A stretch of 64,000 bases of DNA from Thalassotalea psychrophila (GTDB lineage Bacteria; Pseudomonadota; Gammaproteobacteria; Enterobacterales; Alteromonadaceae): positions 4,154,001-4,218,000 of the forward strand of contig NZ_CP134145.1 of assembly GCF_031583595.1 (NCBI RefSeq). The letters are read 5' to 3'. Numbering within the stretch: the first letter of the stretch is position 1; the number at the start of each line of letters is the position of its first letter. Below are positions 11,788-29,010 of this stretch, one piece after another. The notes under the pieces are model-generated. The model saw only the letters and a program-made list of their open reading frames with translations, searched no databases and was not told where the DNA came from. The position numbers were made by a program, and so were the translations under genes.

Positions 11788-14031
11788 TTATTGGCTAATA
11801 GGATGCATTTCTGAAATATCCTGTGGCGCACCTGGACCATGACAAAATTGGCATTGCTCTAACACGATTCCTTCATCAATATCACTTTGTGTGGTTGAGA
11901 AACTGCCACCATTTGATTCAATATGCCCTTTTACTAAATCACTATCATGGCATGAACTACATACTGCGGCAGTTGGTGAAGTAACTGTATCATCATTTGG
12001 ATTTGCTATATCGGCGCCAGTATTAGACGTTGTACCTAAAACACCTTCAGTAAGTGGTAAGGTGTAAGTACCTTCGCTATGACACAAGGTACAATCACCA
12101 ACCTCGGCAGGGAAGACACCATCATAAACGTGAGTAGTAAAACCTTGGTAGCCAACAATTTGTAATGGTTTTTCGCGTTTATTCGAACCATGAATACCAT
12201 GGATCATAGTTTTAAAATCTATCGATTCTTCAGCTTTGCCATCAGTAGGAGGATTCGCGGCGACTGATCTTACCCGTTTATCGGTATTTCGTGGGTTATG
12301 ACACATAACACAAGCTTCTAAATTATCGTTACGGTTACCACCATGCATAGAAAGTTCACTATGACAGCCAAAACAATTTGTTATATCTACAACCTTTCTA
12401 CGAGGAATTGGTGTTGAATCATCTATCGCAAAATAGCTCACCACGTTAGTTAGTGGTACTTGCTGAAAATCAGGATTGTTAGCGTCGCCAAAATTAACAG
12501 CTGGATGACCTTCAATATTTACTCCACCGCTTCCTGTAGTGGCAATAGAAGGTGCTAAGCTACCATCTGGCATCGCAATACTAGACAGTACGCTAAAACT
12601 ACCATCTCCTACAGCTACGGCCTCTGTTAACGCATTTACTTGTACAGCACTGGCATTATCACCTTGATTACCGGTATTAGTATAATCGGTTGTCGACCAG
12701 GCGATATCAATCGTTAATGAGCTATTAGCATTGGTAAACTCTTCGTCATTTAAAATATCATATAAAGCATCATTATCTTCTGGGTTGCTTATGTTGAACT
12801 GTATTAGAGGAAACTCACCCGGAGCGGTTTGAGTAATACTTAAGATAGTTGCAACAAATTGAGATTTAGCTTCCGTAACCAAATTTTTGTGTTTATCTTC
12901 AATAGAGCCCGCAATAGCAGAATTTTGATGACAACTTCTACAATTAGTATTATCGACTTGTCCACCCATGTGCTCATCAAACTTGAGTTCATCATGACAT
13001 GAGCCACAAGCTTGCATAGTAACTACTTCTCGCCAGTTATCTCCACTAGATGTTACAGTCACTCCGGCTATTGCCGTAGCGCCGCCAGCATGGCATTGAC
13101 CACACTCAAGAATATCGTTTGGAAAACTAACCCCACTATAATCATGCAATGAATCTTGATAGCCATAAATTTGGTAACTACCGCCTGCTTGTACTGAAGG
13201 TAGGTCTTTACCACGATGAATTTTATGGATCATGTTTTTAAAGTTCACCGTATTACCGCTATTAGCATCTGTGCTGCCTGGGTTATGGCAAGTTACGCAA
13301 TAATCAACTTCTACACGTCCGCCACCATGCATGGCCAATTGCCCGTGACAAGCATTACAGTTTTCTGTTGCAACAATGTGTTGGCTGAAAATACCATCGT
13401 ATTGAGTTTTTCCTGAGCTAGGCTCCCAATCAAAGGTGACATTTACTGGTTCGTCTAAATTGGCTATTTGTAATCCGACTCTATGGGTAAAACTTTCTTG
13501 GTAACTTAAATTTAATCCTTGAATTTCAGCTTGCTGGAGAATGGTTTGGTTACTTGTTTCGAGCGGCTGACTAAATGTGTATTGATAGACGCCATTATTA
13601 AAGTTAACAAAACTACCAACACTGGCCTTTTCTGTGGTTGCCTGTAATTTTGGCTCGGTGCCTGTGCCTACTCCAGGTTGTTCTATTTTATTAATATAAG
13701 ATTGCCAGTTGCCAGTTAGGTTTCCTTCAGCGCCAATCGTCAGTTTGGCTACTGTAAATTGCACATCGTCGGCGATAACCGTGGTAATTGGTGTACTGTC
13801 AGCGTTAAAAAGTTGAAATTGTACTGTTAACTTGCCTGAATCAACTGCTGCAGAGGTGATAAAGTTACCAGGGGTAATTTCTTCTAACTCAGCTGTCTGA
13901 GTTAAGTCTTGGCTAGCGCTATCTATTTCAGAACTGTCACCACTGTCTCCGCCACAGGCGACAGCCATGCAGGCTGACAGCAATACAAAAACAAACTGTA
14001 GTGATAATTTTTTATATCTAGCCATTTGCAT
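11788..14031 (-). CDS. OmcA/MtrC-family decaheme outer-membrane lipoprotein (second copy)
   Basis: Predicted cell-surface terminal reductase that passes electrons to extracellular acceptors such as Fe(III) or Mn(IV) oxides. The 747 residues have a lipoprotein signal with lipobox LSAC (Cys21; Cys26 is an alternative) and ten CXXCH motifs in two groups of five: CNACH, CVTCH, CGQCH, CGSCH, CRSCH, then CFGCH, CVMCH, CTLCH, CSSCH, CQFCH. The two pentaheme groups sit between beta-rich segments, as in MtrC/OmcA. It is the last gene of the operon, 14 bp after its paralogue. Which metal it reduces cannot be read from sequence. Confidence 0.9.
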   Translation of the reverse strand: MQMARYKKLSLQFVFVLLSACMAVACGGDSGDSSEIDSASQDLTQTAELEEITPGNFITSAAVDSGKLTVQFQLFNADSTPITTVIADDVQFTVAKLTIGAEGNLTGNWQSYINKIEQPGVGTGTEPKLQATTEKASVGSFVNFNNGVYQYTFSQPLETSNQTILQQAEIQGLNLSYQESFTHRVGLQIANLDEPVNVTFDWEPSSGKTQYDGIFSQHIVATENCNACHGQLAMHGGGRVEVDYCVTCHNPGSTDANSGNTVNFKNMIHKIHRGKDLPSVQAGGSYQIYGYQDSLHDYSGVSFPNDILECGQCHAGGATAIAGVTVTSSGDNWREVVTMQACGSCHDELKFDEHMGGQVDNTNCRSCHQNSAIAGSIEDKHKNLVTEAKSQFVATILSITQTAPGEFPLIQFNISNPEDNDALYDILNDEEFTNANSSLTIDIAWSTTDYTNTGNQGDNASAVQVNALTEAVAVGDGSFSVLSSIAMPDGSLAPSIATTGSGGVNIEGHPAVNFGDANNPDFQQVPLTNVVSYFAIDDSTPIPRRKVVDITNCFGCHSELSMHGGNRNDNLEACVMCHNPRNTDKRVRSVAANPPTDGKAEESIDFKTMIHGIHGSNKREKPLQIVGYQGFTTHVYDGVFPAEVGDCTLCHSEGTYTLPLTEGVLGTTSNTGADIANPNDDTVTSPTAAVCSSCHDSDLVKGHIESNGGSFSTTQSDIDEGIVLEQCQFCHGPGAPQDISEMHPISQ

Positions 14032-14045
14032 AGTTAACTACCATC

Positions 14046-16397
14046 CTACCGTTTATGGACCATTTCAACATCGGCCGCTTCACCCGGGCCATGACATAAT
14101 GCACAACTCTCTGTAGTGCTTTGAACCAAATCATAACCTTCGTTGAATTTTGCACCACCGGTTGAAATCATATGCGTTTGCACTTCTGCTGAGTCATGAC
14201 ACGAACTACAGGTTGCAGCTGTAGGTGTTGTATATTGTTCTGTAATACCAGTAAATATTGGCGTATTAAAAGCTAATGGCAATTGTGTGGTACCTTCTAT
14301 ATGACAGCTATCACAATTAGCTATATCACCAGGAAAATGAATATCTTCAGAAAATTCTCCTCGATATGGTTCTTCTCTTATATCTGTAGCGTGCACGCCG
14401 TGAATTAGATACCTGAAATCTGCATATTCATCAAAACCAAGGCTGGCACCATGACATGATGCGCAAACTAAAGGTTCCCCACTAGGTACTGCATGGAAGT
14501 TAACATGACCTTTTTCAACCATTGAAAATCTATTATGACAACTATTACACTTATCGATAGACACCACACTTCTTCTTGGCGTTACCGCGGCTTCACTACT
14601 TGCAAAAAATTCTATAGGACTCTTGATCGGACTTACATCTTCAAATTCAGTTAAGGTCGTATTGGGACCATTTGCATGACCAAGCATTAATACCGCAATA
14701 CTATCCTGTCCTTCAGGGATCGTTTCAGGTATTAGCCCCATATCTAAAACAAAGCTGTTATCTGAGCCTGCTTTTAAAATACTTTCAGCAATGGCATCAA
14801 TTTCAATATTTAAAGCATCAAATCCCACCAACCCTTCATTATCAAAATCACTGGCAGCATCCCATGCAACTCCCACTCTAATTTTACCATCAAAAATTGC
14901 GGTATCTTTGATATCTATCGGTGTACCATTTTCAGTAACATTGAACGTAACCACCGGGCTTTCACCTGGACCTGTATTAATGACACTTTCTATATTCATT
15001 GCATAAGTTAATGCTTTTTCAGTATAACTATCACGGTGGATTTGATTAGCCTGTATGTCATTTGGATTTTCAGCACCATCATCAACATGGCATCCAGTAC
15101 AGTTAGTTTCATCAGAGAAACCAGGATGGTTAGGCCCTGGTAAGGGATCCCCATCTAATGTTGAGTTATCGACAAACAATTTTTCATGGCATGAGCTACA
15201 AGCTTGCTTAGTGGGGTTAGAGACCCAACTATGACCATCTTCAGTTATTTTTGCGGATGGCTCTGGGATCATTTGGGTTTGGGTAAACAGAATATCTTCG
15301 TTACCAGCATGGCAGCTACCACAATTTTTTATATTTTGTGGAAAACCGGTAGTTGAATAATCGTGCTCGCTATTTTGATAGCCCCAAATAGTAAATGGTT
15401 TGCCTTCAACAACATTTGGTAAATTTCGACCAAAATGAATTTTATGAACAAGCTGTTTAAAGTCGACTGAATTGCCACTGTTACTGTCGTTGGTATCTGG
15501 GTTATGACAGGTAACACAATAATCTGTTCGGGTTCTTCCGCCACCATGGGTTGCCAATTGGCCATGGCATGAATTACAGGTTTCTTCAGTAACAATTTGG
15601 CGAGCATTATGTGTCTCATAAAAGGTGTCAGACAGAGATGTACCGCTAATACCATCAGTTGCGGAAGCGACCTCAGCAGGTACAAAGTCAACACAGATGT
15701 TTTCAACATCAGCATTAAAACTAAACTGGATACAGCTTCTGTGGACCTCTGTCAGAGTTGCTACGTCTGCAAACTGAAACGGAAATGTATAATTCCACGT
15801 GCCATCGCCATTATTTTCAAATTGACCATTACTATCTGAAGTTGCCTGAGTTAAAACTGATTTACCGGTAGCAAATTCACTTTGCACTTTTTTAGCTGTG
15901 TCATCAATTAGCTCTGGATCAGATTCTTCAGTAAAGGAAGTACAAGCATTATTGGTATCATCCATATCAGCCTGCGAACGACAAATAGGATCTTCAGATT
16001 TAATAAAATAGCTTGTCCAGCTTTGGCCTTGAGAATCACCTGGGTTTGGTACTAATTTGGCTAAGGTGAATCCTGCATTACTCGAACCCAAGTCAACAAT
16101 TTGAGTAGTACCATTTACCATTAAATTAAATGTTAGTGTTAAGTTTTGCTCAATAACAACACCGGTAATCCCTGTAGAAATAGTATCATCTTCTGTAATA
16201 TCACCTGATTCAATTAACCCGTTACTTGGCGGTGGTAATGGTGTTGGCGGTGGCGTAGTTGGTGGTGTGCCACTTGCTGGCGGTGGAGTTGATTCTACTC
16301 CCTGAGCTCTGTCGCCACCGGTGTCACCATCACAACCAGAAAGAGTTAAACTTCCTAGCAAAGAGAGCATGACTAAAAATGTAGTTTTCCTAAACAT
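14046..16397 (-). CDS. OmcA/MtrC-family decaheme outer-membrane lipoprotein (first copy)
   Basis: 783 residues, with lipobox LSGC (Cys22) and a Pro/Thr-rich linker near residues 38-58, then a beta-rich segment and ten CXXCH motifs: CNSCH, CVTCH, CGSCH, CSSCH, CTGCH, then CNSCH, CASCH, CDSCH, CSSCH, CALCH. Heme-flanking text such as CHGQLATHGGGR and the C-terminal CALCHGPGEAAD mirror the downstream paralogue, so the pair arose by duplication, though the copies have diverged widely. It should sit at the outer face of the MtrA/MtrB-type conduit. It starts 17 bp after the barrel gene. Confidence 0.9.
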   Translation of the reverse strand: MFRKTTFLVMLSLLGSLTLSGCDGDTGGDRAQGVESTPPPASGTPPTTPPPTPLPPPSNGLIESGDITEDDTISTGITGVVIEQNLTLTFNLMVNGTTQIVDLGSSNAGFTLAKLVPNPGDSQGQSWTSYFIKSEDPICRSQADMDDTNNACTSFTEESDPELIDDTAKKVQSEFATGKSVLTQATSDSNGQFENNGDGTWNYTFPFQFADVATLTEVHRSCIQFSFNADVENICVDFVPAEVASATDGISGTSLSDTFYETHNARQIVTEETCNSCHGQLATHGGGRTRTDYCVTCHNPDTNDSNSGNSVDFKQLVHKIHFGRNLPNVVEGKPFTIWGYQNSEHDYSTTGFPQNIKNCGSCHAGNEDILFTQTQMIPEPSAKITEDGHSWVSNPTKQACSSCHEKLFVDNSTLDGDPLPGPNHPGFSDETNCTGCHVDDGAENPNDIQANQIHRDSYTEKALTYAMNIESVINTGPGESPVVTFNVTENGTPIDIKDTAIFDGKIRVGVAWDAASDFDNEGLVGFDALNIEIDAIAESILKAGSDNSFVLDMGLIPETIPEGQDSIAVLMLGHANGPNTTLTEFEDVSPIKSPIEFFASSEAAVTPRRSVVSIDKCNSCHNRFSMVEKGHVNFHAVPSGEPLVCASCHGASLGFDEYADFRYLIHGVHATDIREEPYRGEFSEDIHFPGDIANCDSCHIEGTTQLPLAFNTPIFTGITEQYTTPTAATCSSCHDSAEVQTHMISTGGAKFNEGYDLVQSTTESCALCHGPGEAADVEMVHKR

Positions 16398-16414: not shown

Positions 16415-18913
16415 CTATTCAATTTGATACTTAAAAGAAAGTTGAAACACATGTAATTGGTCATTAGCCGGGCGTTGACCTGTACCTAAAACTTTCGCAA
16501 TTGAATTTGGATTTACCTGATCATATGCCCAATTTTTGCCACTAAAACGGTAATACTGGTAGCTAAAAGAGAAGCTCATATTGGGTTTATAATGATATAA
16601 GGTATTAAATTCAAAATGATGTTCTTTATTGCTCGCATCAGGCAATCCTATATTGGTTAAATCGCCAGCTCCACCTGATGAAAAATTGTCGTTCTTGCTG
16701 GTTGAGTCACTTAATCTATAATCAAAGTCCATCTCAATAGTCTTAGGTAAATAATCCCAATGTGCCGATAAACCTAGAGAAATGGTGCTGTCTTCTGGTT
16801 TTATCTGCCAATTTCTTGCACTGTCACTGGCTTGTGGTAATGGTGCATATTGCTCGAAAGCACTTTTTTCATAACCACCAGTAAACTCCCTACCAGTTTG
16901 ATCAAACTCATAACTGTCATAACTTAAATAACTCGAAAAGTTTATTGTGTTGGAGTAAATCCAAACGCCATTTAAGGAGCTTAAAAATGATTTGTCATTA
17001 ATTAGGCCTAAAGTCGATTTATCGTATTCATTTTCTTTATAGCTAATATCAAAGTTAGCGTGAATATGATCTTCTATTGGATAGCTGAAATTAGCTTTGC
17101 CACTCATTTGTTCACGATTTGACAAATAGTGTTGGCTCAATAATGGATGATTAGTATATCGTTGGCTTTCTGGTGTTTGGTTAATCAGCTGAGCGTCAAA
17201 CAATGAATAATAAGAACGATCCCAATGGTATAAAGATGCAGATCTATCTTTAAAGCCTATTTCAAACCTACTCGCCAGATTGTTTTCAGAATACGCTCTT
17301 AATTTTAGTTTTATGGTATTTTCAATCGTGCTGTTAACCGCATAGTTATAACGATCAATTTCTTCATAAGCATAAATTAAAGAAGCTTTACTACGACTTG
17401 GCAGCCTATAGTTAGTTGTTAATTCAAAATAGTTGGAATTTTTACTATGCGCAGCATTATAGTGCCTGAATTTTTCATCAATTGGAGCCCAAGTGTCTGC
17501 AAAAACAACTTGATACGCATCTCTTGGGCTTTGATTGTCGCGTTCGCTATATCGGTAAAGCCCCTTAAAGTTGAGAGTGTTTGAATAACGATACAGTGCA
17601 GATGTTTTGGCGGTGATAGTAACTACTTCACCGTCTAAACTTGTGCGCGGTAATTCTCCTACAACAAGCTGGCTATTTATCGTATACGGTAAATAGTTAT
17701 CATCTTGGCTTGCTAACGAATAAGAAGTATCAGCAAAAAAACGTAATTTTGGAGAGTGAATATAATGACCTAATACCCGAAGTTGATGAAAGTCATTGTC
17801 TGGAGCAACGCCTATTTGACCAGTTCCATCTGGGTAAGCAACATTAGGGCCTATTAACGATGAATATGGATTTTGCCAAGTAAGCGATGACTTTTCATTT
17901 TCAAACTGAGAAAATAGATAATCAGCTTTTACTGAATAACTTGATTGGTTATAGGCTATTGAAAGTTCCATTTTATTTGTTGTTTGATCAATAGCTTGCG
18001 GTAAAATTGTCGAGTGACCATTTTGCACATTTGCATAAAGTGCCGCACCTGTCGTTTTTATGCCAGTTTTCTCTTCAGTACTGAAATCAGAGGTTAGAAA
18101 CCAATTTTTGCCAAAGTACTGCGAGTATTCTAAGTTAAGCTGCTCACGTTCTAAGGTTTGTTCAAATGAGCTTGCCGTAACATTAAATGCTGACATGCCA
18201 TCAGTGGTTTGCGCTGCTACCCAACTATTCGGTAAGGTAAATAAGCCTCTTGGTAAAACTAGTCCATCACGGTTAGTTGAGTAAGGTGTTAATCCAGTAA
18301 AATTGTTTACTTGCTGAATTTGATTAAAATTAAACTCAACCTTATAAGCTCGTACCTGCCCTATTTTAAAGCTTAATTCACGGTTATCTAACCCTAGATT
18401 TTGTGCATCTACCTGCCAATAATCAATAAATGAATTAGCGGTATTAAAATCTCTATAGTAGCCAGATAAATTTACATGCGTGCCCTCTTCACTTAAACCG
18501 TTATATCGACCAAAACTAAAAGTGTCATCAGTTACATGAAGTACATCCACTTGCACAAAGCCTGGTGAATTCACTTCTTGCACTACTATTTTAGGCTGAT
18601 ATTTTTCTTCAGCTAAAAAGGCAAAGGGATCTTCCTCTGCATCACTCGCTTTAGCTTCAACTTGTTTACTTTCTTTAGGTAGGGCTTTAGGTTGATATTT
18701 TTCTTCCGCTAGAAACGCGAATGGATCTTCATCCTTTTCATTTGCTTTAGCGTTATCTTGTTTATTTTCTTCGGGTAGAGCTTTAGGTTGATATTTTTCT
18801 TCAGCTAAAAACGCGAATGGGTTTTCTTCTTCACTTTCCTGCTGCGCATAACTATTAATGCTGACCAAGCTTAATGCGAGCAAGTAAGTAGAACACCATT
18901 CAGTTTTGTTCAT
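16415..18913 (-). CDS. MtrB/PioB-family decaheme-associated outer-membrane beta-barrel
   Basis: The barrel threads the periplasmic decaheme cytochrome through the outer membrane so electrons can cross. The 832 residues have a signal peptide ending SYA at residue 23, then about 700 residues of alternating hydrophobic/polar strands ending in FQLSFKYQIE, a typical barrel C-terminus. Before the barrel, the motif PFAFLAEEKYQPK occurs three times (residues 32-44, 64-76, 96-108) with an exact 32-residue period. No CXXC motif is seen in the mature N-terminus, unlike Shewanella MtrB. It lies between the decaheme and surface cytochrome genes, as expected for a conduit. Confidence 0.88.
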   Translation of the reverse strand: MNKTEWCSTYLLALSLVSINSYAQQESEEENPFAFLAEEKYQPKALPEENKQDNAKANEKDEDPFAFLAEEKYQPKALPKESKQVEAKASDAEEDPFAFLAEEKYQPKIVVQEVNSPGFVQVDVLHVTDDTFSFGRYNGLSEEGTHVNLSGYYRDFNTANSFIDYWQVDAQNLGLDNRELSFKIGQVRAYKVEFNFNQIQQVNNFTGLTPYSTNRDGLVLPRGLFTLPNSWVAAQTTDGMSAFNVTASSFEQTLEREQLNLEYSQYFGKNWFLTSDFSTEEKTGIKTTGAALYANVQNGHSTILPQAIDQTTNKMELSIAYNQSSYSVKADYLFSQFENEKSSLTWQNPYSSLIGPNVAYPDGTGQIGVAPDNDFHQLRVLGHYIHSPKLRFFADTSYSLASQDDNYLPYTINSQLVVGELPRTSLDGEVVTITAKTSALYRYSNTLNFKGLYRYSERDNQSPRDAYQVVFADTWAPIDEKFRHYNAAHSKNSNYFELTTNYRLPSRSKASLIYAYEEIDRYNYAVNSTIENTIKLKLRAYSENNLASRFEIGFKDRSASLYHWDRSYYSLFDAQLINQTPESQRYTNHPLLSQHYLSNREQMSGKANFSYPIEDHIHANFDISYKENEYDKSTLGLINDKSFLSSLNGVWIYSNTINFSSYLSYDSYEFDQTGREFTGGYEKSAFEQYAPLPQASDSARNWQIKPEDSTISLGLSAHWDYLPKTIEMDFDYRLSDSTSKNDNFSSGGAGDLTNIGLPDASNKEHHFEFNTLYHYKPNMSFSFSYQYYRFSGKNWAYDQVNPNSIAKVLGTGQRPANDQLHVFQLSFKYQIE
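18595..18825 (-). repeat. 96-bp tandem coding repeat in the barrel gene
   Basis: Three 96-bp units, each including TTAGGCTGATATTTTTCTTC or a near match on the plus strand, encode the 32-residue repeat in the mature N-terminus of the barrel protein. The spacers between the conserved 13-residue cores are acidic/Lys-rich and more diverged than the cores. Confidence 0.85.
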
Positions 18914-18919
18914 ATCATA

Positions 18920-19858
18920 CTACCTTGTTAACCTTGAGCCGGAAGGATGATTTGAACCATGAATTTGAGAGTGACAGTTTAAGCAATTTTTTCCTAATAA
19001 AAATTCAGAGCCTTGGCCTGTATTTGCTAAACCACTTCCATCATGCTGTACGCTAGGGTGAAATGCTGCTGAATGGCATTGTTGACATAAAAATGGCCCG
19101 CGGGCTTTCAATAAACTGGCATTAACCGAACCATGTGGTTTATGACAAATAGTACATTCTTCGGCAACAGGTGCATGCTCAAATAAAAATGGTCCTCGTT
19201 TTTCAGCATGGCATGAAAAACAGGTATCATTTACCGTAGGTTCATTTAACGAATGTTCACTAATATTACCATGTGGGTTATGGCAATCTACACAAGTTGT
19301 TTTACCTTCTAAAATTGGATGGCTAGACGGCATATGGGCAGAAGCTTGTACTGATTTATGACAAGTAAAACAAGTTTCTGATTGTTCTAATCTAACTAGA
19401 ACATCGTCTATTCTGTCGTGGATGTTATGACATGACAAGCATGATAATTCTTCATCATTGTGTACCCCACTTAACCACATCAATTGGTTTCCTTTTTCAT
19501 GACAGTCTAAGCACACAGCAGATTGCTCGTTAAATTTACTTGGCCATTTAGGACCAAAACTTAAACTTGGAGAATTATCTCTTGGTACTTTGCCATGCTC
19601 TAAACTAGGCCCATGGCAAGCAACACAAGTTTGATTACTTTTACCAAATACCTTTCCATGCGGTGTTTGCCAAATAGCATGAATAGGCGTTTCCTGTGTT
19701 TCTTGATGACACCCCAAACAATTAACTTCGGTCTCCACTTCATCAACAGTTGTTTCTTCTGCCAACACACTATTTGTTGTAAATACCAAAAGCACGGTTA
19801 ACAACATACTAGGTAAGTATGTATTCAAAGCTTTAGCAATTTTTATTTTTTTAATCAC
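18920..19858 (-). CDS. DmsE/MtrA-family periplasmic decaheme cytochrome c
   Basis: Periplasmic electron carrier that fits inside the MtrB-type barrel. The 312 residues have a signal peptide ending SVLA (about 1-33) and ten CXXCH motifs: CLGCH, CVACH, CLDCH, CLSCH, CFTCH, CVDCH, CFSCH, CTICH, CQQCH, CLNCH. The C-terminal CHSQIHGSNHPSG is the family signature ending. Length and heme count match DmsE/MtrA. It lies 6 bp upstream of the barrel gene, consistent with coupled synthesis of the two partners. Confidence 0.92.
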   Translation of the reverse strand: MIKKIKIAKALNTYLPSMLLTVLLVFTTNSVLAEETTVDEVETEVNCLGCHQETQETPIHAIWQTPHGKVFGKSNQTCVACHGPSLEHGKVPRDNSPSLSFGPKWPSKFNEQSAVCLDCHEKGNQLMWLSGVHNDEELSCLSCHNIHDRIDDVLVRLEQSETCFTCHKSVQASAHMPSSHPILEGKTTCVDCHNPHGNISEHSLNEPTVNDTCFSCHAEKRGPFLFEHAPVAEECTICHKPHGSVNASLLKARGPFLCQQCHSAAFHPSVQHDGSGLANTGQGSEFLLGKNCLNCHSQIHGSNHPSGSRLTR

Positions 19859-19882: not shown

Positions 19883-21451
19883 TTACTGCAAAATAAAATC
19901 TGTATCAATACCATCAGATGACATGGTCAATGGTAAAGAAACTTTATGCTCTGCGCCTGATTTACCATCTAAATGGATGGCAATACCGAAGGTAATATCA
20001 TTACCCTCAATAAGCGGTTTCACTTCATCAGCTATTGCTTTGTTAATGATCACAGTCCACATACCATTAGCAAATGTTGCGCTAGCAGTTAATTGTCCAG
20101 GGTCAGTTTCTTTACGCTCATCTAAAACCATGAACCTTTGTAAACTAGCAAACTTTCCTTCGCTTAAATTCACTCGCCACAATTCAACAAATTCACCATT
20201 AGCTGTCATTTCATCGAGTGTTTTTTTATCATGTTCAACACTAGCAAAACCTACACTGTGCAGTTGTTTTAGCGATGTTAATAAATATTTAGTTTTATCA
20301 AGTCCTCTATCTCGGCCCATACCTGGTAAATCGCCATGACATGATGCCCAGCAACCACCTTTTGCAAAGGCATCGACTTGGCCATTATCAAACATTAAAG
20401 CAAGGCTAGAATCATTTTTACTGCCTTGCCACGTGATTGTGAATTGCACTGCCGATGCCATTTTTTTAACCGCCACATCAGCTTCAACACTTGCAATAAC
20501 ACCTTCAGGAGCAAGTACTTTGCCTAATTCTTTTGCATCTCCTAAATGACATTGACGACAATTTCTGCCCTGACGTAATGCTTGCGCACCGGGATGCTCT
20601 TCCAATAACCAGTCGCCATCTGATTGGCCTGGATGAAATACATCGACAAGCATTGACGATAATCCGCCTTCACGTAACTTAGCAAAATTATCTGTATCTA
20701 CATGGGCAACACCAAGATGACAATCAACACAGGTTCGGTCTTTATGCTGCATCACTAAATGGTAATTTTTGGCTTTAAGGCTTACCTCACTACTTAGCTG
20801 CATCTCTTTAAAATCATGACAATTTCGACAACCTAACGATCTATTTTCCAACATCATTAATTGTGGTTTAGGGTTTGCATGTGGGTTATGACAGTTTGAA
20901 CATGGTGGGTTTTTATCAATTAAATCAGTAAAATGATGCATGCCATTTTTTTGCACTTTATGACAAACCGTACACACTTCGGCCTGAGTGTCTGCAACTC
21001 TTACCGGATCAACATCTACATGAACATCATGACAAGTAACACACGTTACCTCTTCATTAGCATGTTTACCCGCCCGCCATTCTTTGTGGGTAGTGGTTTT
21101 TTCATGACAGTTTAAACATGTATTATTTTGTTCATCGATAGAGCTTGTCCATCTAGGACCATAACTCGTTCTAGGCTTAATTTTAGTCGGAGTTGCAGCA
21201 TGTGTTTGACTATCACCATGACAAGCAACACAGCCTTCATTATTCACTGGCGATTCTTTTATCATTTCATCCCAATGCTTGCTGTTGTGCATAGCTTTAA
21301 TCTTAGGGATCACCTCTGGATCATGGCAACTGGTACATTCAATTTTTGCCGATATTTGTTGTGCATTAACGTTACTCGTTATAAATAAACTAAGTAATAC
21401 CGATAACACAACAACTGCTGAAGGCAATTTAAACACAGTAATTTGTTGCAT
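19883..21451 (-). CDS. multiheme cytochrome c with C-terminal ethylbenzene-dehydrogenase-like heme domain
   Basis: About 522 residues. A signal peptide (ending NVNA) precedes a region with nine CXXCH motifs (CTSCH, CVACH, CLNCH, CVTCH, CTVCH, CSNCH, CRNCH, CVDCH, CRQCH) like the DmsE/NrfB type. The C-terminal 190 residues look like the EB_dh / DMSO-reductase-type heme-binding beta domain and contain GGCWASCHGDLPGMG, a tenth site with CX3CH spacing. I start it at the ATG at 21451, preceded by AGAAAGGAAAT; the longer reading to 21478 uses a TTG and overlaps the upstream stop. It probably links the NapC-type quinol oxidase to the decaheme conduit. The domain name is from memory of the family. 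Confidence 0.78.
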   Translation of the reverse strand: MQQITVFKLPSAVVVLSVLLSLFITSNVNAQQISAKIECTSCHDPEVIPKIKAMHNSKHWDEMIKESPVNNEGCVACHGDSQTHAATPTKIKPRTSYGPRWTSSIDEQNNTCLNCHEKTTTHKEWRAGKHANEEVTCVTCHDVHVDVDPVRVADTQAEVCTVCHKVQKNGMHHFTDLIDKNPPCSNCHNPHANPKPQLMMLENRSLGCRNCHDFKEMQLSSEVSLKAKNYHLVMQHKDRTCVDCHLGVAHVDTDNFAKLREGGLSSMLVDVFHPGQSDGDWLLEEHPGAQALRQGRNCRQCHLGDAKELGKVLAPEGVIASVEADVAVKKMASAVQFTITWQGSKNDSSLALMFDNGQVDAFAKGGCWASCHGDLPGMGRDRGLDKTKYLLTSLKQLHSVGFASVEHDKKTLDEMTANGEFVELWRVNLSEGKFASLQRFMVLDERKETDPGQLTASATFANGMWTVIINKAIADEVKPLIEGNDITFGIAIHLDGKSGAEHKVSLPLTMSSDGIDTDFILQ

Positions 21452-21474
21452 ATTTCCTTTCTCCAAACCAAAAA

Positions 21475-22146
21475 TCAATGTGTGTCTGCTTCAACAATGG
21501 CAGCAACGTCTTCAGACAAATGAGTTAGCCCTTGATGGCAATCAATACAGGTTTTACCCTCACTTTTCATAACCGCATGAAACTCCTGCGCTTTCGCAGT
21601 TTGCAATTCAAATACCATTTGCGATACTTCATGACAATTTCGACACTCTTGGGAATCATTCGCTTTTAACCGAGCAATTTCTTTATCTCGCATGTGTACT
21701 ACTTTTGATAAATATTGCTCAGTTGTATCTAGCTCACCAGAAAAATATGACCATAATTCGCGCGATGCGATAATTTTACGCCACATTTTATTGCCAAATT
21801 CAACAGGTACATGACAACTAGAGCACACAGGTCGTACTCCGGTTTTATTCTTGAAGTGAGTAGATTTATGATACGTTTCAGCCGTTGCGCCTGGTTGTAA
21901 ATGACATCCTGTACAGAACTCCTCGGTATTTGTTAGCCCCATACCTACTTCAAAGCCAATAACACTACCTACCCCAACAAAGATGCCAACTGTTATCAAA
22001 AAGAAGCTGGTATATACAGCCCCCTTATTGAAAAACCGCGAAACAATAAACGCAATTATCAGTAGAACAACCACAATGGCAAATATTACTATCACTAAAC
22101 CAAAAGGTTCGAGTAATTCAAAAATCCATTCCATAAAATCTAGCAT
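21475..22146 (-). CDS. NapC/NirT-type tetraheme membrane cytochrome c (CymA-like role)
   Basis: Membrane-anchored cytochrome that takes electrons from quinol and feeds periplasmic cytochromes. The 223 residues have four CXXCH motifs (CTGCH at 78-82, CSSCH, CRNCH, CIDCH), with EEFCTGCH after the membrane part and CIDCHQGLTHL at the end, as in NapC/NirT. Unusually there are two hydrophobic segments (about 17-36 and 43-65), whereas CymA/NapC have one. The operon position suggests it supplies this conduit directly, in the role CymA plays in Shewanella. Confidence 0.85.
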   Translation of the reverse strand: MLDFMEWIFELLEPFGLVIVIFAIVVVLLIIAFIVSRFFNKGAVYTSFFLITVGIFVGVGSVIGFEVGMGLTNTEEFCTGCHLQPGATAETYHKSTHFKNKTGVRPVCSSCHVPVEFGNKMWRKIIASRELWSYFSGELDTTEQYLSKVVHMRDKEIARLKANDSQECRNCHEVSQMVFELQTAKAQEFHAVMKSEGKTCIDCHQGLTHLSEDVAAIVEADTH

Positions 22147-22177: not shown

Positions 22178-25100
22178 TTATGGTGTTGATAAAAGTGCAT
22201 CGGCGATTGCTTTAAGTTGAGCGTCAGTACGATCTCCAACCATATCTACAGGGCCAGCTTTTAATTGTTCAAATGTAAAATCAGTTAAAGGATAACCATT
22301 ACCTGGATGTGGCTGCCCCATACCATTACCAGAATGACATATGCCACAATCCCCTTCAAAGATAGCTTCACCATCTGTTATCAAGGCTGTTATTTCTAAA
22401 ATTTGATAATCGGATAAGTAAGTGAAGTCTGGCATACTTACAGCTTCTGTAATGGCAGTTTTAAGTTGTTCAAAGGTACGGTCGGTAATATCCCAACCAG
22501 GTGTTCCGTAGCCATTACCGATATGACACATTCCACAATTTGGCGTAGCGAAGAATGATTCTGCATCAAATAACGCATCTGATAACGCAGATATTTCTAC
22601 ATCTCTTAGGAAGTTTAGGTCGCTCATCATTCCTATACCATTTGGTATATCACCTCCTCCAAATATTGCATTAGTTATCTGCTCTACAGTCGAGTTGGTG
22701 CGGTCTGAGTAGGATCCCCCATCATCCATGCCATTGCCTACGTGACAATGGTCACAGTGTTCTTCGTATAAAGCTACACCGTCAGGGCTCTTCATTAAGT
22801 TTGCTATTTCTGCTATTTGGAAATCAGATAAGTGAGCAAAATCTCCCATAGTCGGACGTGCAATAATCGCAGCTTTAAGCTCATCGAATGATTTATCTGT
22901 TAGATCTGTTGGCGTAGTCGCATTTCCGTAGCCATTACCGGCATGACAAAAACCACAGCCTGTATCACTTTCAAAGAATGATTCTGAGTTGAATACAAAA
23001 TTTGATATTTCTTGGATTTGACGTTGATCGAGTATATCGATTTCATCATCACCTAACATTGGTGGGGTGAATCTAATAACATTAGTTATTTCTTCAGCAG
23101 TTTTACCAGCTAGATCTTCTTTTGTGTGACAAGCAGCACCACATCTAGTGTCAAATAAATCAGCGGGACTAGAAATTGCTATTGCTATTTCTTCTATTTG
23201 GCGAGGGGTTAAAGCTGTAAGGGTCGGATCATCCTTCATACTTCCATTGTTAGCTATCGCACCAGTTATTTGTTCAAAGTTTTTATTTGTTTTGTCAAAA
23301 CCAATAGTACCAGTGCCGAATCCATTCGCTATATGACATCCTCCACACTTAGCTACAAACAGTGTTTCTCCGTTAATAAGTTCATCTGCGATTACTTGAA
23401 TTTGGCGAGGGTTTAAATTCTCTGTGAAGTTAGGAGCTCCATTTCCCATACTAAAACCAATTTGAGTTGTTATTTCCTCGACTGTAGCATTCTCTTTCAT
23501 AACGTCTACGGGGTCGTGACAAGAACTACCACTACACGAATCTTGCAGTAATTTCTGAGGATCTGTAATTGCTACTTCCACTGAAGTTACTTGACGTTCA
23601 TTTAAAGCAAAGCCTGGTCCAATCTCCATTCCTTCATCTAGAATTTGCTGTACATTCTTATTGGTCTTATCGCTATAAATAGGTTCATCTGGGCCTAAAC
23701 CATTTGCAGTATGACAACTAGCTCCACAAGTACTTGTGAAGATTTGCTCGCCATCTAATGCTAAGTAATCAGATATCACTTGAATTTGGCGATCATTAAC
23801 GACTACTACGCCCATCTCATCACCAGCGTTATTCGCAATTGCAGTTTTTATTTGTTCAAAGGTTGCATCACCCTTTTCTTCCTTGCTATGACAACTACTA
23901 CATTTCTCTATAAATAACTCAGGGATATTAGTTATAGCTAGTTCGATGGCGTGTAACTCTGCATCATTAACAGTTACAGTCATTTTACCATCATCGATAG
24001 CACCACGAATTTGCTGCGCATTTTTATTTGTTTTGTCACCAAAAACACCAATCTCATTTACTGTATGACAATGCCCACACTTAGTATCAAATAATGCAGT
24101 TCCATCTAAAGGTACAAGGTAATCTGAAATTTCTAGTAATTGACGCTCATTCAACACTTCGTAATCAGGAATCATCATTGGATCAAATTTGCCAATAGCC
24201 CAGGAAATCTGCTCAGGGGTTTTATCGGCAAGTTCATCAAAGCCGTGGCAAGTTGAGCACTCTGCAGCAAAGAATTGTGGCGTATTGCTTATTGCCAATT
24301 CTATGGCTAATAGCTCTTCAGCGGTTAATTCAATTGCCCCCATACCTCCAAAGTCACTCGCTATTGCCCCCTCAATTTGAGCAACATTTTTATGGGTCTT
24401 ATCACTAATGGTACCCACTCCATGTCCATTAGCAGTATGACAACCACTTGTACCACATGTTGTTTCAAATAAAGCTACACCATCTATTATTTCAGGCACT
24501 AACGCATCTGCAATAGCCTGCAATTCAGGATCTGTTAAATGCCCTATCATACTGTCTGGTGCTTTGCTAAGTTGCTCGAAAGTATAACCAGTTAAGTCAC
24601 GCCCAATCGTTCCAGAACCCAAGCCATTACCAATATGACAATCACCACATTCACTTTCAAATAATGCTTCGCCATCTATTATCTCAGGCACTAAAGCATC
24701 AGCAATAGCCTGCAATTCAGGATCTGTTAAATGCCCTATCATACTGTCTGGTGCATTGCTAAGTTGCTCGAAAGTATAACCGGTTAAGTCACGCCCAATC
24801 GTTCCAGAACCCAAGCCATTACCAATATGACAATCACCACATTCACTTTCAAATAATGCTTCGCCATCTATTATCTCAGGCACTAAAGCATCAGCAATAG
24901 CCTGCAATTCAGGATCTGTTAAATGCCCTATCATACTGTCTGGTGCATTGCTAAGTTGCTCGAAAGTATAACCGGTTAAGTCACGCCCAATCGTTCCAGA
25001 ACCCAAGCCATTACCAATATGACAATCACCACATTCACTTTCAAATAAAGCTTCACCATCGATTGGCGGCTCTACAACTTCACCTTCAATAGAAACAGTA

Positions 25101-25792
25101 ACAATATCAGTTGCACTTAAGCCATCATTATCAGTTACCGTAAGTTCAAATACTAAATCACTAGCTTCAATATTTGGAACAGTGAACTTTGTAGTTGGGA
25201 AAGTAGGGTTAATTAAAGTAACGGTTTCACCTGAAGTTTGCTGCCACTGATAACTTACAATACTGCCATCAGAGTCAGTGCCGATGCCGAATAAATTAAC
25301 AACATCGCCATACATTGCAGCTTTATCAGATCCTGCTTCTGCTGTTGGTGGAATTGTGCCACCGCCTCCATCAACTTGTACGGTAATATCAACAGTATCT
25401 GTGGCAAAATTACTTTCTGAGCCGGTAACTGTTAATTCGAACGTTAAAACATTATCTACTGGATTGCTTGGGCTGGTGAAACTTGCGGTGGCATTGTCTG
25501 AATTTAACAGTGATACGATATCACCAGAGGTTTGTGTCCAGGCATAACTGCTAATGGTTCCGTTATCTGTTGAACCCGAGCCGGGTAAAGTAACTATTGC
25601 TTGGGGAGTTACTTGTTGGTCAACACCTGCATTGGCGGTAATGTTGGTATCGGGATTTTCATCGTTATCATCATCGTCGTCATGATCACAGCCTGCCAGT
25701 GACAACATACTGATGACGAACAAGAGCCGATAAAAAATTTTGAAATGAAATAATGTTGCTGAAAGTAACCCCGAACTATTACCTAAACGCAT
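22178..25792 (-). CDS. giant lipoprotein with two PKD-like domains and 15 single-heme cytochrome c modules
   Basis: 1204 residues. Lipobox LAGC (Cys35), then an Asp-rich stretch, two PKD/Ig-like beta domains (about 50-140 and 147-237), and from about residue 246 a string of about 15 modules of about 64 residues. Each module has one heme motif followed by a Met and a helix such as LTDPELQAIADAL, the pattern of monoheme class I cytochrome c with His/Met ligands. I count 11 CXXCH, two CX3CH (CGASCH, CGAACH) and two CX4CH (CGTSGCH, CSGSSCH). The first three modules are nearly identical. It leads the operon, 31 bp before the NapC-type gene. It is probably anchored at the outer membrane or cell surface as an electron wire or store; I know no named family with this layout. 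Confidence 0.8.
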   Translation of the reverse strand: MRLGNSSGLLSATLFHFKIFYRLLFVISMLSLAGCDHDDDDDNDENPDTNITANAGVDQQVTPQAIVTLPGSGSTDNGTISSYAWTQTSGDIVSLLNSDNATASFTSPSNPVDNVLTFELTVTGSESNFATDTVDITVQVDGGGGTIPPTAEAGSDKAAMYGDVVNLFGIGTDSDGSIVSYQWQQTSGETVTLINPTFPTTKFTVPNIEASDLVFELTVTDNDGLSATDIVTVSIEGEVVEPPIDGEALFESECGDCHIGNGLGSGTIGRDLTGYTFEQLSNAPDSMIGHLTDPELQAIADALVPEIIDGEALFESECGDCHIGNGLGSGTIGRDLTGYTFEQLSNAPDSMIGHLTDPELQAIADALVPEIIDGEALFESECGDCHIGNGLGSGTIGRDLTGYTFEQLSKAPDSMIGHLTDPELQAIADALVPEIIDGVALFETTCGTSGCHTANGHGVGTISDKTHKNVAQIEGAIASDFGGMGAIELTAEELLAIELAISNTPQFFAAECSTCHGFDELADKTPEQISWAIGKFDPMMIPDYEVLNERQLLEISDYLVPLDGTALFDTKCGHCHTVNEIGVFGDKTNKNAQQIRGAIDDGKMTVTVNDAELHAIELAITNIPELFIEKCSSCHSKEEKGDATFEQIKTAIANNAGDEMGVVVVNDRQIQVISDYLALDGEQIFTSTCGASCHTANGLGPDEPIYSDKTNKNVQQILDEGMEIGPGFALNERQVTSVEVAITDPQKLLQDSCSGSSCHDPVDVMKENATVEEITTQIGFSMGNGAPNFTENLNPRQIQVIADELINGETLFVAKCGGCHIANGFGTGTIGFDKTNKNFEQITGAIANNGSMKDDPTLTALTPRQIEEIAIAISSPADLFDTRCGAACHTKEDLAGKTAEEITNVIRFTPPMLGDDEIDILDQRQIQEISNFVFNSESFFESDTGCGFCHAGNGYGNATTPTDLTDKSFDELKAAIIARPTMGDFAHLSDFQIAEIANLMKSPDGVALYEEHCDHCHVGNGMDDGGSYSDRTNSTVEQITNAIFGGGDIPNGIGMMSDLNFLRDVEISALSDALFDAESFFATPNCGMCHIGNGYGTPGWDITDRTFEQLKTAITEAVSMPDFTYLSDYQILEITALITDGEAIFEGDCGICHSGNGMGQPHPGNGYPLTDFTFEQLKAGPVDMVGDRTDAQLKAIADALLSTP
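24481..25056 (-). repeat. three 192-bp tandem repeats coding 64-residue cytochrome modules
   Basis: Units 24481-24672, 24673-24864 and 24865-25056 have an exact 192-bp period. The second and third are almost base-identical; the first has silent and one replacement change (SKAPDS against SNAPDS). Each encodes one CGDCH heme module, so the array changes heme number in steps of one without shifting the frame. Confidence 0.95.
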
Positions 25793-26090
25793 GCTTCAAC
25801 CTAATTTCTATTGATAAATTTGAACTGTCAGAAAGTTCTATAACAGTATAAAAAAAATACATACTAAAAAGATTAGTAGACTTTTTCGTTTTGAGGTAAT
25901 TTTTCGTTAAAAATATGTTAAAAAAACAAGGTGTTATTTTCTTCATATTGTATATAAAGGTTAGATTTTATAAATATTTTCCAATTGCAGTTATTGAACA
26001 GTGTACTGTGCGATTTATAACCTATATGTAACCTTGAAAACGTACAAATATTGTCGTTAAATAACATTTTTTATCATTTCAGTAAAAAAC

Positions 26091-26104
26091 TTGATCTAAA
26101 TCAA
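26091..26104. promoter_or_regulatory. FNR/EtrA-type binding site
   Basis: TTGATCTAAATCAA matches the FNR consensus TTGATNNNNATCAA at all ten defined positions. Its centre is about 62 bp upstream of the start point predicted from the promoter at 26125-26153, the standard class I activator position. It may also act on the divergent cytochrome operon, which starts 299 bp away. Confidence 0.72.
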
Positions 26105-26111
26105 CAAATAC

Positions 26112-26132
26112 AAATGAGAATTGTTTGCATTT
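26112..26132. promoter_or_regulatory. Fur-like operator overlapping the porin promoter
   Basis: AAATGAGAATTGTTTGCATTT is an imperfect palindrome of the AAATGANAAT type found in Fur boxes. It covers the -35 hexamer, so an iron-loaded repressor bound here would block transcription. It is weaker than the box upstream of feoA. Confidence 0.5.
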
Positions 26133-26153
26133 AGATTTAGCTTTCGCTATAGT
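26125..26153 (+). promoter_or_regulatory. sigma70 promoter of the porin gene
   Basis: TTGCAT (26125-26130), a 17-bp spacer and TATAGT (26148-26153), about 52 bp upstream of the ATG. The FNR-type box upstream and the Fur-like box over the -35 fit together geometrically. Confidence 0.55.
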
Positions 26154-26205
26154 CTCGCCATAAAATAATTATCCATTAAAAAACATCTTTACCAGGGAAA
26201 CCCAA

Positions 26206-27390
26206 ATGATGAAAAAATCAATTATCGCTACTGCGCTTATTTCTTTATTTGCAACCAATGCGATGGCAGCTGAGGAAACTCAAGAATTACGTGACGTTAT
26301 TGCCGAGCAACAAAAAGTTTTAAAGTCTTTAGAAGCCCGTTTAAACGAAACTGAAAGCCGTCTTGAAGCAACAGCTAGCCAAGTTGATGAAAATGCATCT
26401 GCCAGCCCGTTTGCTAATACAACGATTGGCGGTTACGGTGAACTTCACTACAACAACTACGAAGATGAAGATGCTGAGGTTGATTTCCATCGCTTTGTTT
26501 TATTCTTTGGCCATGAGTTTGATTCAAAAACACGTTTCTTCTCTGAATTTGAACTAGAGCATTCACTAGCCGGTGACGGTGAAGACAAGCCAGGTGAGGT
26601 TGAGTTAGAACAAGCTTACGTTGAATATGATTACAGCAAAAACATTACAACTAAAGCTGGTTTATTTTTAGTACCTGTAGGTATTATCAATGAAACTCAT
26701 GAGCCACCAACATTCTACGGTGTTGAGCGTAACGGTGTTGAGAAGAATATTATTCCTGCGACTTGGTGGGAAGCAGGTCTTGCAGGTAACTTTAAAGTTG
26801 CTCCTGGCTTAAGCATTGACGCAGCAATTACGAGTGGGTTGAATGTAGTTAATGATGTAAGTGATAAAAACGCTTATTTAGTTCGTAAAGGTCGTCAAAA
26901 AGTGGCTGAAGCAAGTGCTGAAAACCTAGCTTATACCGCCCGTGTAAAATACACAGCAATTTCAGGCTTAGAATTAGCCGCTACAGTTCAATATCAAACT
27001 GATATCACTCAAAGTGCAGCGGGTGTAGATGAAGCCGCAGCGACATTGATTGAAGCACACGCAATTTATCAAGTTAATGACTTTACAGTTCGTGCATTAT
27101 ACGCCACTTGGGATATTGATGGCGATGAAGCAGCTTCACTTGGTCGTGATGAGCAAACAGGCTGGTATGTGGAGCCTTCTTACAAAATTAACGAAGAGTT
27201 TGGCGTATTTGCACGTTACTCTGAATATAATAACCAAGCAGGCGATAGTTCTTCTGACGCAGTAGAGTCAACAAGTGCAGGTATCAACTATTGGTTACAT
27301 GAAAATGTGGTATTTAAAGCAGATGTTGAAGAATTAAGTGGTGCTAAAGATTCTAAAGGCTTTAACTTAGGTTTCGGTTACCAGTTTTAA
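26206..27390 (+). CDS. outer-membrane porin with N-terminal coiled coil (phosphate-selective-porin-like)
   Basis: 394 residues: a signal peptide ending AMAA (about 1-22), a heptad-like stretch (about 25-62, LRDVIAEQQKVLKSLEARL), then a beta-barrel of about 330 residues ending LGFGYQF with a terminal Phe, as in trimeric porins. Features such as GGYGELHYNNY and FGHEFDSKTRFFSEFELEH resemble Porin_O_P/DcaP-like proteins. It is followed by flavin and Feo genes and preceded by FNR- and Fur-type boxes, so it may admit an iron complex or electron shuttle; that is inference. Confidence 0.8.
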   Translation: MMKKSIIATALISLFATNAMAAEETQELRDVIAEQQKVLKSLEARLNETESRLEATASQVDENASASPFANTTIGGYGELHYNNYEDEDAEVDFHRFVLFFGHEFDSKTRFFSEFELEHSLAGDGEDKPGEVELEQAYVEYDYSKNITTKAGLFLVPVGIINETHEPPTFYGVERNGVEKNIIPATWWEAGLAGNFKVAPGLSIDAAITSGLNVVNDVSDKNAYLVRKGRQKVAEASAENLAYTARVKYTAISGLELAATVQYQTDITQSAAGVDEAAATLIEAHAIYQVNDFTVRALYATWDIDGDEAASLGRDEQTGWYVEPSYKINEEFGVFARYSEYNNQAGDSSSDAVESTSAGINYWLHENVVFKADVEELSGAKDSKGFNLGFGYQF

Positions 27391-27458
27391 TTACAGATAA
27401 TTGGTTTGTATAAAAAACAATTAACATTAAAGTGAGTAAGGTAACCCTTATTCACTTT

Positions 27459-27506
27459 ATTCATTTAAGAAATAAATGGATAATACGATTTATTTCTTAA
27501 ATGAAT
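27459..27506. repeat. perfect 19-bp inverted repeat between the porin and FMN-binding genes
   Basis: ATTCATTTAAGAAATAAAT at 27459-27477, a 10-base loop, and its exact reverse complement at 27488-27506. Directly before it is a second hairpin, AAAGTGAGTAAGG with CCTTATTCACTTT (about 27429-27459), which could end transcription after the porin. The 19-bp stem has no T-tract after it; it could be an RNA-processing or stabilising structure, or the remnant of an element. Confidence 0.75.
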
Positions 27507-27584
27507 AGAAACACAGGTGCTATATTTACGGATTAATTTTTCTTTAAAATAGCAACCACAATTGCATTAGCTAAAAGGCACTGC

Positions 27585-28103
27585 GTGAACAAAATAATCT
27601 TCATTCTATTAATATTAACTGGCAGTGCATTTTCAGTAGTTGCTGACGGTGTTTATCAGTCTAATGAGCAATTTTTAGAGCAAGCATTTAATGCAGAAAT
27701 ACCAAAAGCAGAAGCGTTATGGTTAACTGTTGATGATAAAACAGTAATCAGTGCCATAATGAGTCGCAAGTTCAACCAACTACGAGTACGATTCTGGCAA
27801 CAGGATGGTGCAACAGTGTGGATACTTGATGAAATTGGCAAAGAAAAGCCAATCACCATTGGTGTTCATATCAAAAACGAAAAAATAGTTAACCTTAAGG
27901 TGCTGGCATTTCGTGAAAGCCGTGGTGATGAAGTTCGTCATCAGTTTTTTACCAAGCAATTTATTAATGCTGAGTTAAATGAAGAGAATCAGTTAACTCA
28001 GCATATCGATGGCATTACCGGTGCAACGCTGTCGGTTAGAGCATTAAACAAAGTCGCTCGTCTTGCACTTTGGCTAGATAACAAAACCCAAGTGACACAA
28101 TAA
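27585..28103 (+). CDS. periplasmic FMN-binding (covalently flavinylated) protein
   Basis: 172 residues with a signal peptide ending VVADG (about 1-21) and one FMN_bind domain. The C-terminal motif DGITGATLS (142-150) fits the flavinylation site, in which ApbE attaches FMN to the last Thr of the TGAT core (Thr148). No apbE lies in the window, so the transferase must act from elsewhere. The start codon is GTG at 27585. It lies 5 bp upstream of a PepSY membrane protein gene and probably receives electrons from it, as in described flavin-based extracytosolic electron-transfer pairs. The downstream feo genes suggest ferric iron as an acceptor. Confidence 0.85.
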   Translation: MNKIIFILLILTGSAFSVVADGVYQSNEQFLEQAFNAEIPKAEALWLTVDDKTVISAIMSRKFNQLRVRFWQQDGATVWILDEIGKEKPITIGVHIKNEKIVNLKVLAFRESRGDEVRHQFFTKQFINAELNEENQLTQHIDGITGATLSVRALNKVARLALWLDNKTQVTQ

Positions 28104-28108
28104 ATAAT

Positions 28109-28882: not shown

Positions 28883-28906
28883 TCATTGCTATTCACCGCA
28901 AATTTA

Positions 28907-28920
28907 TTGCTTTACATCAA
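28907..28920. promoter_or_regulatory. FNR-like site upstream of feoA
   Basis: TTGCTTTACATCAA differs from TTGATNNNNATCAA at two of the ten defined positions. It lies about 60 bp upstream of the Fur box. E. coli feoABC is likewise FNR-activated and Fur-repressed, which supports the call by analogy. Confidence 0.42.
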
Positions 28921-28977
28921 TTATTAACTGATTAAATCAATTTTTAATTGCTGAAATGGCTATGATTTTATAAACTG

Positions 28978-28995
28978 TAATGAGAATCATTATTA
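28978..28995. promoter_or_regulatory. Fur box upstream of feoA
   Basis: TAATGAGAATCATTATTA closely matches the Fur consensus GATAATGATAATCATTATC and lies 15 bp upstream of the feoA ATG. Iron-loaded Fur should repress feoAB here. Confidence 0.82.
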
Positions 28996-29010
28996 TTTAA
29001 GGTAGTTTTC

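Follow-up and report, generated by a model that had tools for sequence, protein, structure and literature searches.

The stretch of DNA analysed here (the window, 64,000 nucleotides [nt]) comes from Thalassotalea psychrophila (contig NZ_CP134145.1, positions 4,154,001 to 4,218,000 of the forward strand). It contains, on the minus strand, a seven-gene operon of the Mtr type headed by a gene for a 1204-residue protein, in which a predicted lipid anchor and two PKD domains are followed by a row of 15 modules with one heme motif each. An initial annotation made from the letters alone had described a lipobox, two PKD-like domains and about 15 monoheme modules. The coordinates and strand of the gene proved exact, and we recovered all of these features: the lipobox is LAGC with Cys35, the PKD pair matches PF22352 (K319L-like) in two stretches in Pfam, and the heme motifs number 15. 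The features of the gene, all on the minus strand, are as follows.

22178..25792, minus: PKD and 15-module poly-monoheme lipoprotein, first gene of the operon, 1204 amino acids (aa) from ATG to stop
25688..25792, minus: signal peptide and lipobox LAGC (residues 1-35, Cys35 being the lipid Cys), with an acidic stretch after it
25379..25630, minus: PKD domain 1 (residues 55-138), the best Pfam stretch
25082..25351, minus: PKD domain 2 (about residues 148-237), from Pfam
24485..25060, minus: modules 1-3, CX2CH, near-identical copies (185-190 of 192 nt identical)
24287..24484, minus: module 4, motif CX4CH (residue 446)
23564..24286, minus: modules 5-8, modelled as one piece; module 8 has CX3CH (residue 689)
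23375..23563, minus: module 9, motif CX4CH (residue 753)
22181..23374, minus: modules 10-15; module 11 has CX3CH (residue 884)

The module array extends from residue 245 through the C-terminal end and carries 11 CX2CH, two CX3CH and two CX4CH motifs at a spacing of 58 to 73 aa. The assignment of one heme motif to every module thus held in 15 of 15 cases, although four of the fifteen are not CX2CH. Since we delimited the modules at their heme motifs, the presence of a motif in each is given by construction; no motif-to-motif distance exceeds 73 residues in this protein or its two Thalassotalea relatives, leaving no room for a module without a motif. Shuffling the mature protein 2,000 times gave a mean of 0.05 heme motifs and a maximum of 2. 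All 31 Cys residues are explained, 30 by heme motifs and one by the lipobox, which rules out a PKD adhesin with chance CXXCH motifs. The Met-bearing segment described for each module was likewise borne out, with a Met 18 to 25 residues ahead of the module end in all 15 modules, compared to a chance mean of 3.1 and a maximum of 9 in 5,000 shuffles. The final module is of the same type as the others, its Met included, and there is no distinct C-terminal domain. The protein is strongly acidic (isoelectric point 4.05), with a net charge per module of -2 to -12.

Profile searches agreed with this picture. Cytochrome_CBB3 (PF13442, class I cytochrome c) scored 191.5 bits summed over the modules (cut-off 27), with just one stretch passing an E-value of 0.01 by itself. 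A profile built from modules outside Thalassotalea matched all 15 modules, with E-values that refer to a search of these 15 sequences only. Over its 63 positions the matches were partial for module 6 (positions 1-45) and module 8 (1-34), the latter being the weakest at 12 bits. The OmcA/MtrC profile TIGR03507 did not match the protein up to an E-value of 0.01, and we rejected an MtrC/OmcA paralogue on this ground; the Pfam MtrC/MtrF domains II/IV gave a weak, subthreshold score (24.9 bits, cut-off 30). From these motifs we infer that the 15 modules are loaded with heme and that Met serves as a ligand of their hemes.

The homologue search identified two full-length relatives, a 1366-aa protein with 19 modules in Thalassotalea nanhaiensis and an 1138-aa protein with 15 modules in T. 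fonticola, and all of their modules are CX2CH. The lipobox Cys and the adjoining Asp at position +2 are kept in both; the same Asp is also found in the 783-aa MtrC-family protein of the T. psychrophila operon. As these orthologues come from two other single-contig genomes, differ in array length and retain a Met in every module, a sequencing or repeat artefact could be ruled out. In both relatives the modules are mostly near-copies of one another, whereas in the 1204-aa protein modules 1-3 are recent copies and most modules have diverged. In a module tree of 68 columns, which left 14 of 40 forks open, 11 modules of the 1204-aa protein had long branches, suggesting that divergence has gone further in most of its modules than in those of the relatives. 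Since array length differs, most modules have diverged and the Met is retained in 49 of 49 modules across the three proteins, the ligands appear to have been kept while much else changed. A search with residues 430-1204 returned only the protein itself and the two Thalassotalea orthologues, the related-locus search with the whole protein returned no relatives, and the plasmid search was empty. Searching the T. psychrophila genome with the module profile revealed no second array: 15 of the 16 matches were those of the array gene, and the sixteenth was weak (E 0.007).

We compared the modules to proteins of known structure. In the Protein Data Bank (PDB), the best single-domain matches of a Thalassotalea-only module profile were domain II (8QJG, 1.7e-9) and domain I (8QJ6, 6.7e-8) of the Geobacter sulfurreducens cytochrome PgcA (GSU1761; PDB 8QJ6, 8QJG and 8QK0), covering nearly the full profile; five multi-domain chains outscored 8QJG in sum. 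With a mixed profile, in which 10 of 14 rows came from other bacteria, the PgcA domains were clearly first (domain I 5.3e-18, domain II 2.6e-17, next match 1.1e-11). In this alignment the module Met falls on a GGM stretch of both PgcA domains, and in 8QJ6 the aligned Met lies 27 residues past the heme His, the distance that separates the ligands His274 and Met301 in the available passages of PMC11520253. Judged by sequence, the modules are members of a domain family already known, that of PgcA domains I and II, and would share their His/Met ligation.

According to the same passages, PgcA is a lipoprotein of compact monoheme domains (residues 261-321 and 352-414) and the founding example of the tethered monoheme cytochromes, its paralogues containing 3-14 hemes; in the accessible part of PMC5732950 it is needed for Fe(III)-oxide but not for electrode reduction. 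The initial annotation had stressed a different architecture, which is correct with respect to MtrC, OmcA and OmcS but overlooked this named precedent. Its description of the chain as high-potential is not supported, as midpoint potentials of the PgcA domains, the closest structural relatives, lie between -48 and -106 mV (PMC11520253, available passages). The array contains, like PgcA, at least three monoheme domains homologous to domains I and II. It differs from it in several respects: the three heme domains of PgcA are parted by (PT)x linkers and include a bis-His domain III, whereas the array has 15 domains (19 in one relative) with gaps of about one residue and a Met in every module, carries two PKD domains and is encoded in an mtr operon. 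Lacking two features of PgcA, the linkers and the bis-His last domain, the array is not filed here as a PgcA. PgcA itself acts alongside other porin-cytochrome conduits. With MtrC and OmcA the array protein shares an extracellular electron transfer setting and a predicted outer-membrane lipoprotein nature. Those proteins and the OmcS type are, in contrast, compact, with mostly bis-His, closely packed hemes (see also the introduction of PMC11520253), and the motif spacing together with one Met per module may argue against a closely packed bis-His filament of the OmcS type. What is new compared to PgcA is thus the array length of 15-19, the near absence of linkers, the PKD domains and the first place in an mtr operon, the domain type itself being known.

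The mean gap between aligned modules was 0.9 to 1.4 residues in the three Thalassotalea proteins. Of the other proteins collected, 52 had five or more modules; their mean gaps were about 4-11 residues in 47 cases, about 16 in two and 33-36 in three, and linkers of these relatives are often proline-rich. We modelled modules 5-8 from an alignment of 9 sequences, obtaining a model of middling quality (mean predicted local distance difference test score [pLDDT] 70.6, no residue at or above 90; predicted template modelling score [pTM] 0.56) with three to four helices in each module and a stretch of 2-5 residues separating the last helix of one module from the first of the next. The flexibility assumed in the initial annotation is therefore doubtful. 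For the tethered class, electron movement has been proposed to occur by collisions of flexibly linked domains (PMC11520253, available passages).

The array gene is followed on the minus strand by six cytochrome or porin genes, confirming that it shares an operon with a complete outer-membrane conduit:

21475..22146, minus: tetraheme NapC/NirT-family cytochrome, 223 aa (PF03264, 3e-54; four CX2CH), which we read as CymA-type
19883..21478, minus: DmsE/MtrA-like cytochrome with an ethylbenzene-dehydrogenase (EB_dh) part, 531 aa (nine CX2CH and one CX3CH)
18920..19858, minus: MtrA/DmsE-family decaheme cytochrome, 312 aa (TIGR03508, 272 bits, cut-off 192)
16415..18913, minus: MtrB/PioB outer-membrane porin, 832 aa (TIGR03509, 323 bits, cut-off 240)
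14046..16397, minus: OmcA/MtrC-family decaheme lipoprotein, 783 aa (TIGR03507, 363 bits, cut-off 209)
11788..14031, minus: OmcA/MtrC-family decaheme lipoprotein, 747 aa (TIGR03507, 520 bits)

Successive gaps between the seven genes are 31, -4, 24, 6, 17 and 14 nt, and the last four genes (MtrA, MtrB and two OmcA/MtrC) exceed the NCBI cut-offs. We take EB_dh (PF09459) to be equal to the DOMON domain of the clusters in PMC8805035. By the available passages of that source, Group 6 mtrCAB clusters consist of an inner-membrane tetraheme cytochrome, a nonaheme MtrA-DOMON, MtrA and MtrB, with two MtrC-family genes in non-Halieaceae members. The operon resembles these clusters in gene content: a tetraheme inner-membrane cytochrome, an MtrA-DOMON (if EB_dh corresponds to DOMON) and a second mtrC adjoining mtrAB are all present. 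It differs in that a monoheme and an octaheme protein, not a poly-monoheme one, are named for Group 6, and the same passages name Thalassotalea in Group 2 only.

Divergent from the operon, on the plus strand, lies a further gene set:

26206-31421, plus: porin O/P, FMN-binding, PepSY_TM, FeoA and FeoB genes

The porin, FMN-binding, PepSY and FeoB genes are present in both Thalassotalea relatives, in which the whole operon and its flanks are conserved, and the divergent gene set suggests an iron setting. A scan of positions 25600-26400 yielded three promoter-like sites (3.6 in shuffles) and one terminator-like site, within the porin gene (0.3 in shuffles, standard deviation 0.7). The window also contains three genes for 394-aa EF-Tu on the minus strand (7873-9057, 32193-33377 and 51188-52372); the first and third proteins are identical and the second differs at 3 positions. 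The mtr operon is flanked by two of these EF-Tu genes, each of which has an EF-G gene close by (9433-11529, plus; 33484-35589, minus).

We then surveyed homologues for module number and linkage to mtrA/B. In a sample of 15 genomes of the genus, the array protein was found in 3 and MtrB in 7. The class sample comprised 369 genomes, in which the E-value thresholds were 1e-20 for MtrB and 1e-8 for modules; no more than 17 first-look candidates were scored in any genome, making module counts lower bounds. MtrB was detected in 28 of the 369 genomes and one or more modules in at least 20. At least eight genomes (G000, G353, G409, G434, G485, G546, G591 and G607) had an open reading frame (ORF) with at least three modules. 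Five of the eight (the T. psychrophila genome, G409, G485, G546 and G607) also have MtrB, with a distance of 1.7-3.6 kb between array and mtrB in each of them. Of the 28 mtrB genomes, five thus have a PKD array less than 4 kb away from mtrB. The hypergeometric probability that at least 5 of 8 array genomes have mtrB is 8e-5 with the T. psychrophila genome and 7e-4 without it, in a test that was partly post hoc as the idea arose from G546. Three more MtrB genomes had lone module matches (E 1e-6), in G638 at a distance of over 50 kb and in G624 and G665 on a different contig.

The four arrays outside the genus that adjoin mtrAB are located as follows, each with a small monoheme partner and no MtrC found at the locus:

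L074, 9505-11199: mtrAB-adjoining PKD and monoheme array
L158, 8198-10420: mtrAB-adjoining PKD and monoheme array
L159, 7849-9930: mtrAB-adjoining PKD and monoheme array
L160, 7984-9849: mtrAB-adjoining PKD and monoheme array

G546 and G485 have the gene order array, monoheme protein, mtrA, mtrB on one strand, and in G409 and G607 mtrA-mtrB is transcribed divergently from the array and the monoheme gene; overall, small monoheme and diheme cytochromes accompany MtrA and MtrB at the four loci. We found no MtrC/OmcA gene in the 14.8-19.9 kb available at each (the G409 contig ends about 1.3 kb past mtrB). Genome-wide, TIGR03507 at E 1e-10 had no match in G546, G485 (72% complete) and G607, and G409 had one match, on a different contig with its own mtrB. 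These four arrays, together with the metagenomic proteins P0046, P0049, P0084 and others, resemble the T. psychrophila protein in that 3-12 modules of the same family come after a PKD stalk. The four differ from it by an N-terminal choice-of-anchor V domain, above the NCBI cut-off in every case and containing its own CXXCH, by the lack of a lipobox and by having no MtrC found at the locus; the collected relatives also have longer linkers. Choice-of-anchor domains mark anchored surface proteins.

Among 200 listed proteins, a similarity-search draw that includes the best 120 of 763 matches and is no census, 78 had at least one module, 55 at least five and 22 at least ten, with a Met after the heme motif in 527 of 537 modules; the three Thalassotalea arrays are the longest (15-19) in this set. 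A profile of the PKD-bearing relatives retrieved mostly PKD proteins from diverse phyla, with nine ORFs having at least three CX2CH in the 80 loci kept, and the ORFs of those 80 loci had no BLAST match to the mtr genes at 1e-8. One locus (L072, 8546-12826, minus, in G353) encodes a 1426-aa PKD protein with proline-rich linkers, 13 CX2CH in the array and one more close to the N-terminus; MtrB had no match in this genome. In the PKD proteins P0031, P0035 and P0037, larger heme units (CKQCHGWDRLG) are repeated and a single module of the array type stands at the C-terminus. In the open-access literature (titles, abstracts and passages, most subscription papers lying outside it), we found no description of a poly-monoheme protein with mtr genes, no link between PKD-monoheme arrays and mtrAB loci without MtrC, and no paper on the relatives.

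The homology to PgcA, the Mtr operon, the relatives at loci without MtrC and the anchoring domains together led us to propose, at about an even chance, that the protein sits at the surface as a lipoprotein and serves as a relay and buffer for electrons between the Mtr conduit and acceptors outside the cell. The PKD pair would lift the row of 15 PgcA-type His/Met domains off the outer membrane, most likely at its outer face. The array would exchange electrons with the MtrAB conduit or the MtrC/OmcA partners, pass them from domain to domain, hold up to 15 of them and reach minerals, humics or neighbouring conduits that are out of reach of compact decahemes. Its surface location and partner, and an outward direction of the electrons as in respiration, are inferred. 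At the four loci without MtrC, it looks as if the array served on MtrC's side. A type II secretin occurred in 8 of 8 genomes searched and also in 6 of 14 controls, being common and weak as evidence.

Several observations speak against this proposal. The PKD domains and the lipobox fit other locations as well, and a lipid anchor does not settle the face of the membrane; an Asp at +2 signals retention in the inner membrane in E. coli. None of the four mtrAB-linked relatives has a lipobox itself, whereas three of their four neighbouring monoheme proteins have one by a simple pattern. The near absence of linkers argues against PgcA-like tethered diffusion. In the class sample, 23 of 28 mtrB genomes show no such array near mtrB, some assemblies being fragmented, and arrays also occur in three genomes in which MtrB had no match (G353, G434 and G591). 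Finally, 4 of the 7 mtrB-bearing genomes of the genus are without the array protein, and in G112, from another family, the same six genes form an operon that lacks it. These last absences indicate that the array is accessory to the conduit, added most simply in the ancestor of the three Thalassotalea species.

A periplasmic role is the strongest competitor, though we consider it rather unlikely. Here the string, with its anchor either in the inner membrane or in the inner leaflet of the outer one, would stretch across the periplasm and link the NapC/CymA-type quinol dehydrogenase to MtrA, like FccA or CctA in Shewanella or PdsA in Vibrio. The array gene is indeed the first of the operon and adjoins the NapC-type gene, and the operon has no gene for a small soluble carrier, while such carriers vary between mtr groups and travel with them in the available part of PMC8805035. 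Moreover, a Geobacter strain without PpcA-E adapted via a mutation trapping PgcA in the periplasm (PMC11520253, available passages). The MtrA-like EB_dh protein of the operon could, however, do the same job, and G112 manages with the operon and no array. Two PKD domains and fifteen heme domains would also seem excessive for the periplasm, and the choice-of-anchor V domains of the four mtrAB-linked relatives also speak against it.

The opposite direction of flow, in which the string would gather electrons from Fe(II), other cells or minerals and pass them inward via MtrAB as in MtoAB/PioAB, appears improbable. The four related loci, with MtrA and MtrB, no MtrC found and small mono- or diheme cytochromes, do resemble the MtoAB/PioAB loci described in the available passages of PMC10654088, and FeoA, FeoB and the porin are divergent neighbours of the operon, the porin and FeoB being kept in both relatives. 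FeoAB, however, indicates only Fe(II) import nearby, and the two OmcA/MtrC genes of the window with the NapC/CymA-type cytochrome make up the reducing set of Shewanella. Least probable of all is a mere electron store, a heme capacitor that would buffer electrons under an intermittent external acceptor without letting the conduit reach any further: a row of 15-19 hemes, and lengths of 15, 15 and 19 in close species with Met in all modules, are what selection for capacity rather than precise geometry would give, but the PKD stalk would then be purposeless and compact multihemes would meet the large protein cost more cheaply.

We also put forward a tentative and, at present, somewhat doubtful idea. 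PKD-stalked arrays of PgcA-type beads may be an unrecognised partner of MtrAB that replaces MtrC at the outer face in several gammaproteobacterial lineages, and that in Thalassotalea would have lengthened until 15-19 His/Met domains, contiguous and nearly linkerless, act as a rigid or semi-rigid covalent heme rod. The presence of the PgcA domain type almost without linkers, inside a Shewanella-type conduit gene set, lets one ask how electrons travel along a linker-free array. The shorter relatives next to MtrA and MtrB in four other families, with no MtrC found at the locus, suggest that outer partners of MtrAB have been missed by annotation, and genomes scored as being without an MtrC pathway may thus be mis-scored. 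More generally, the arrays hint at an overlooked route for electrons at the cell surface.

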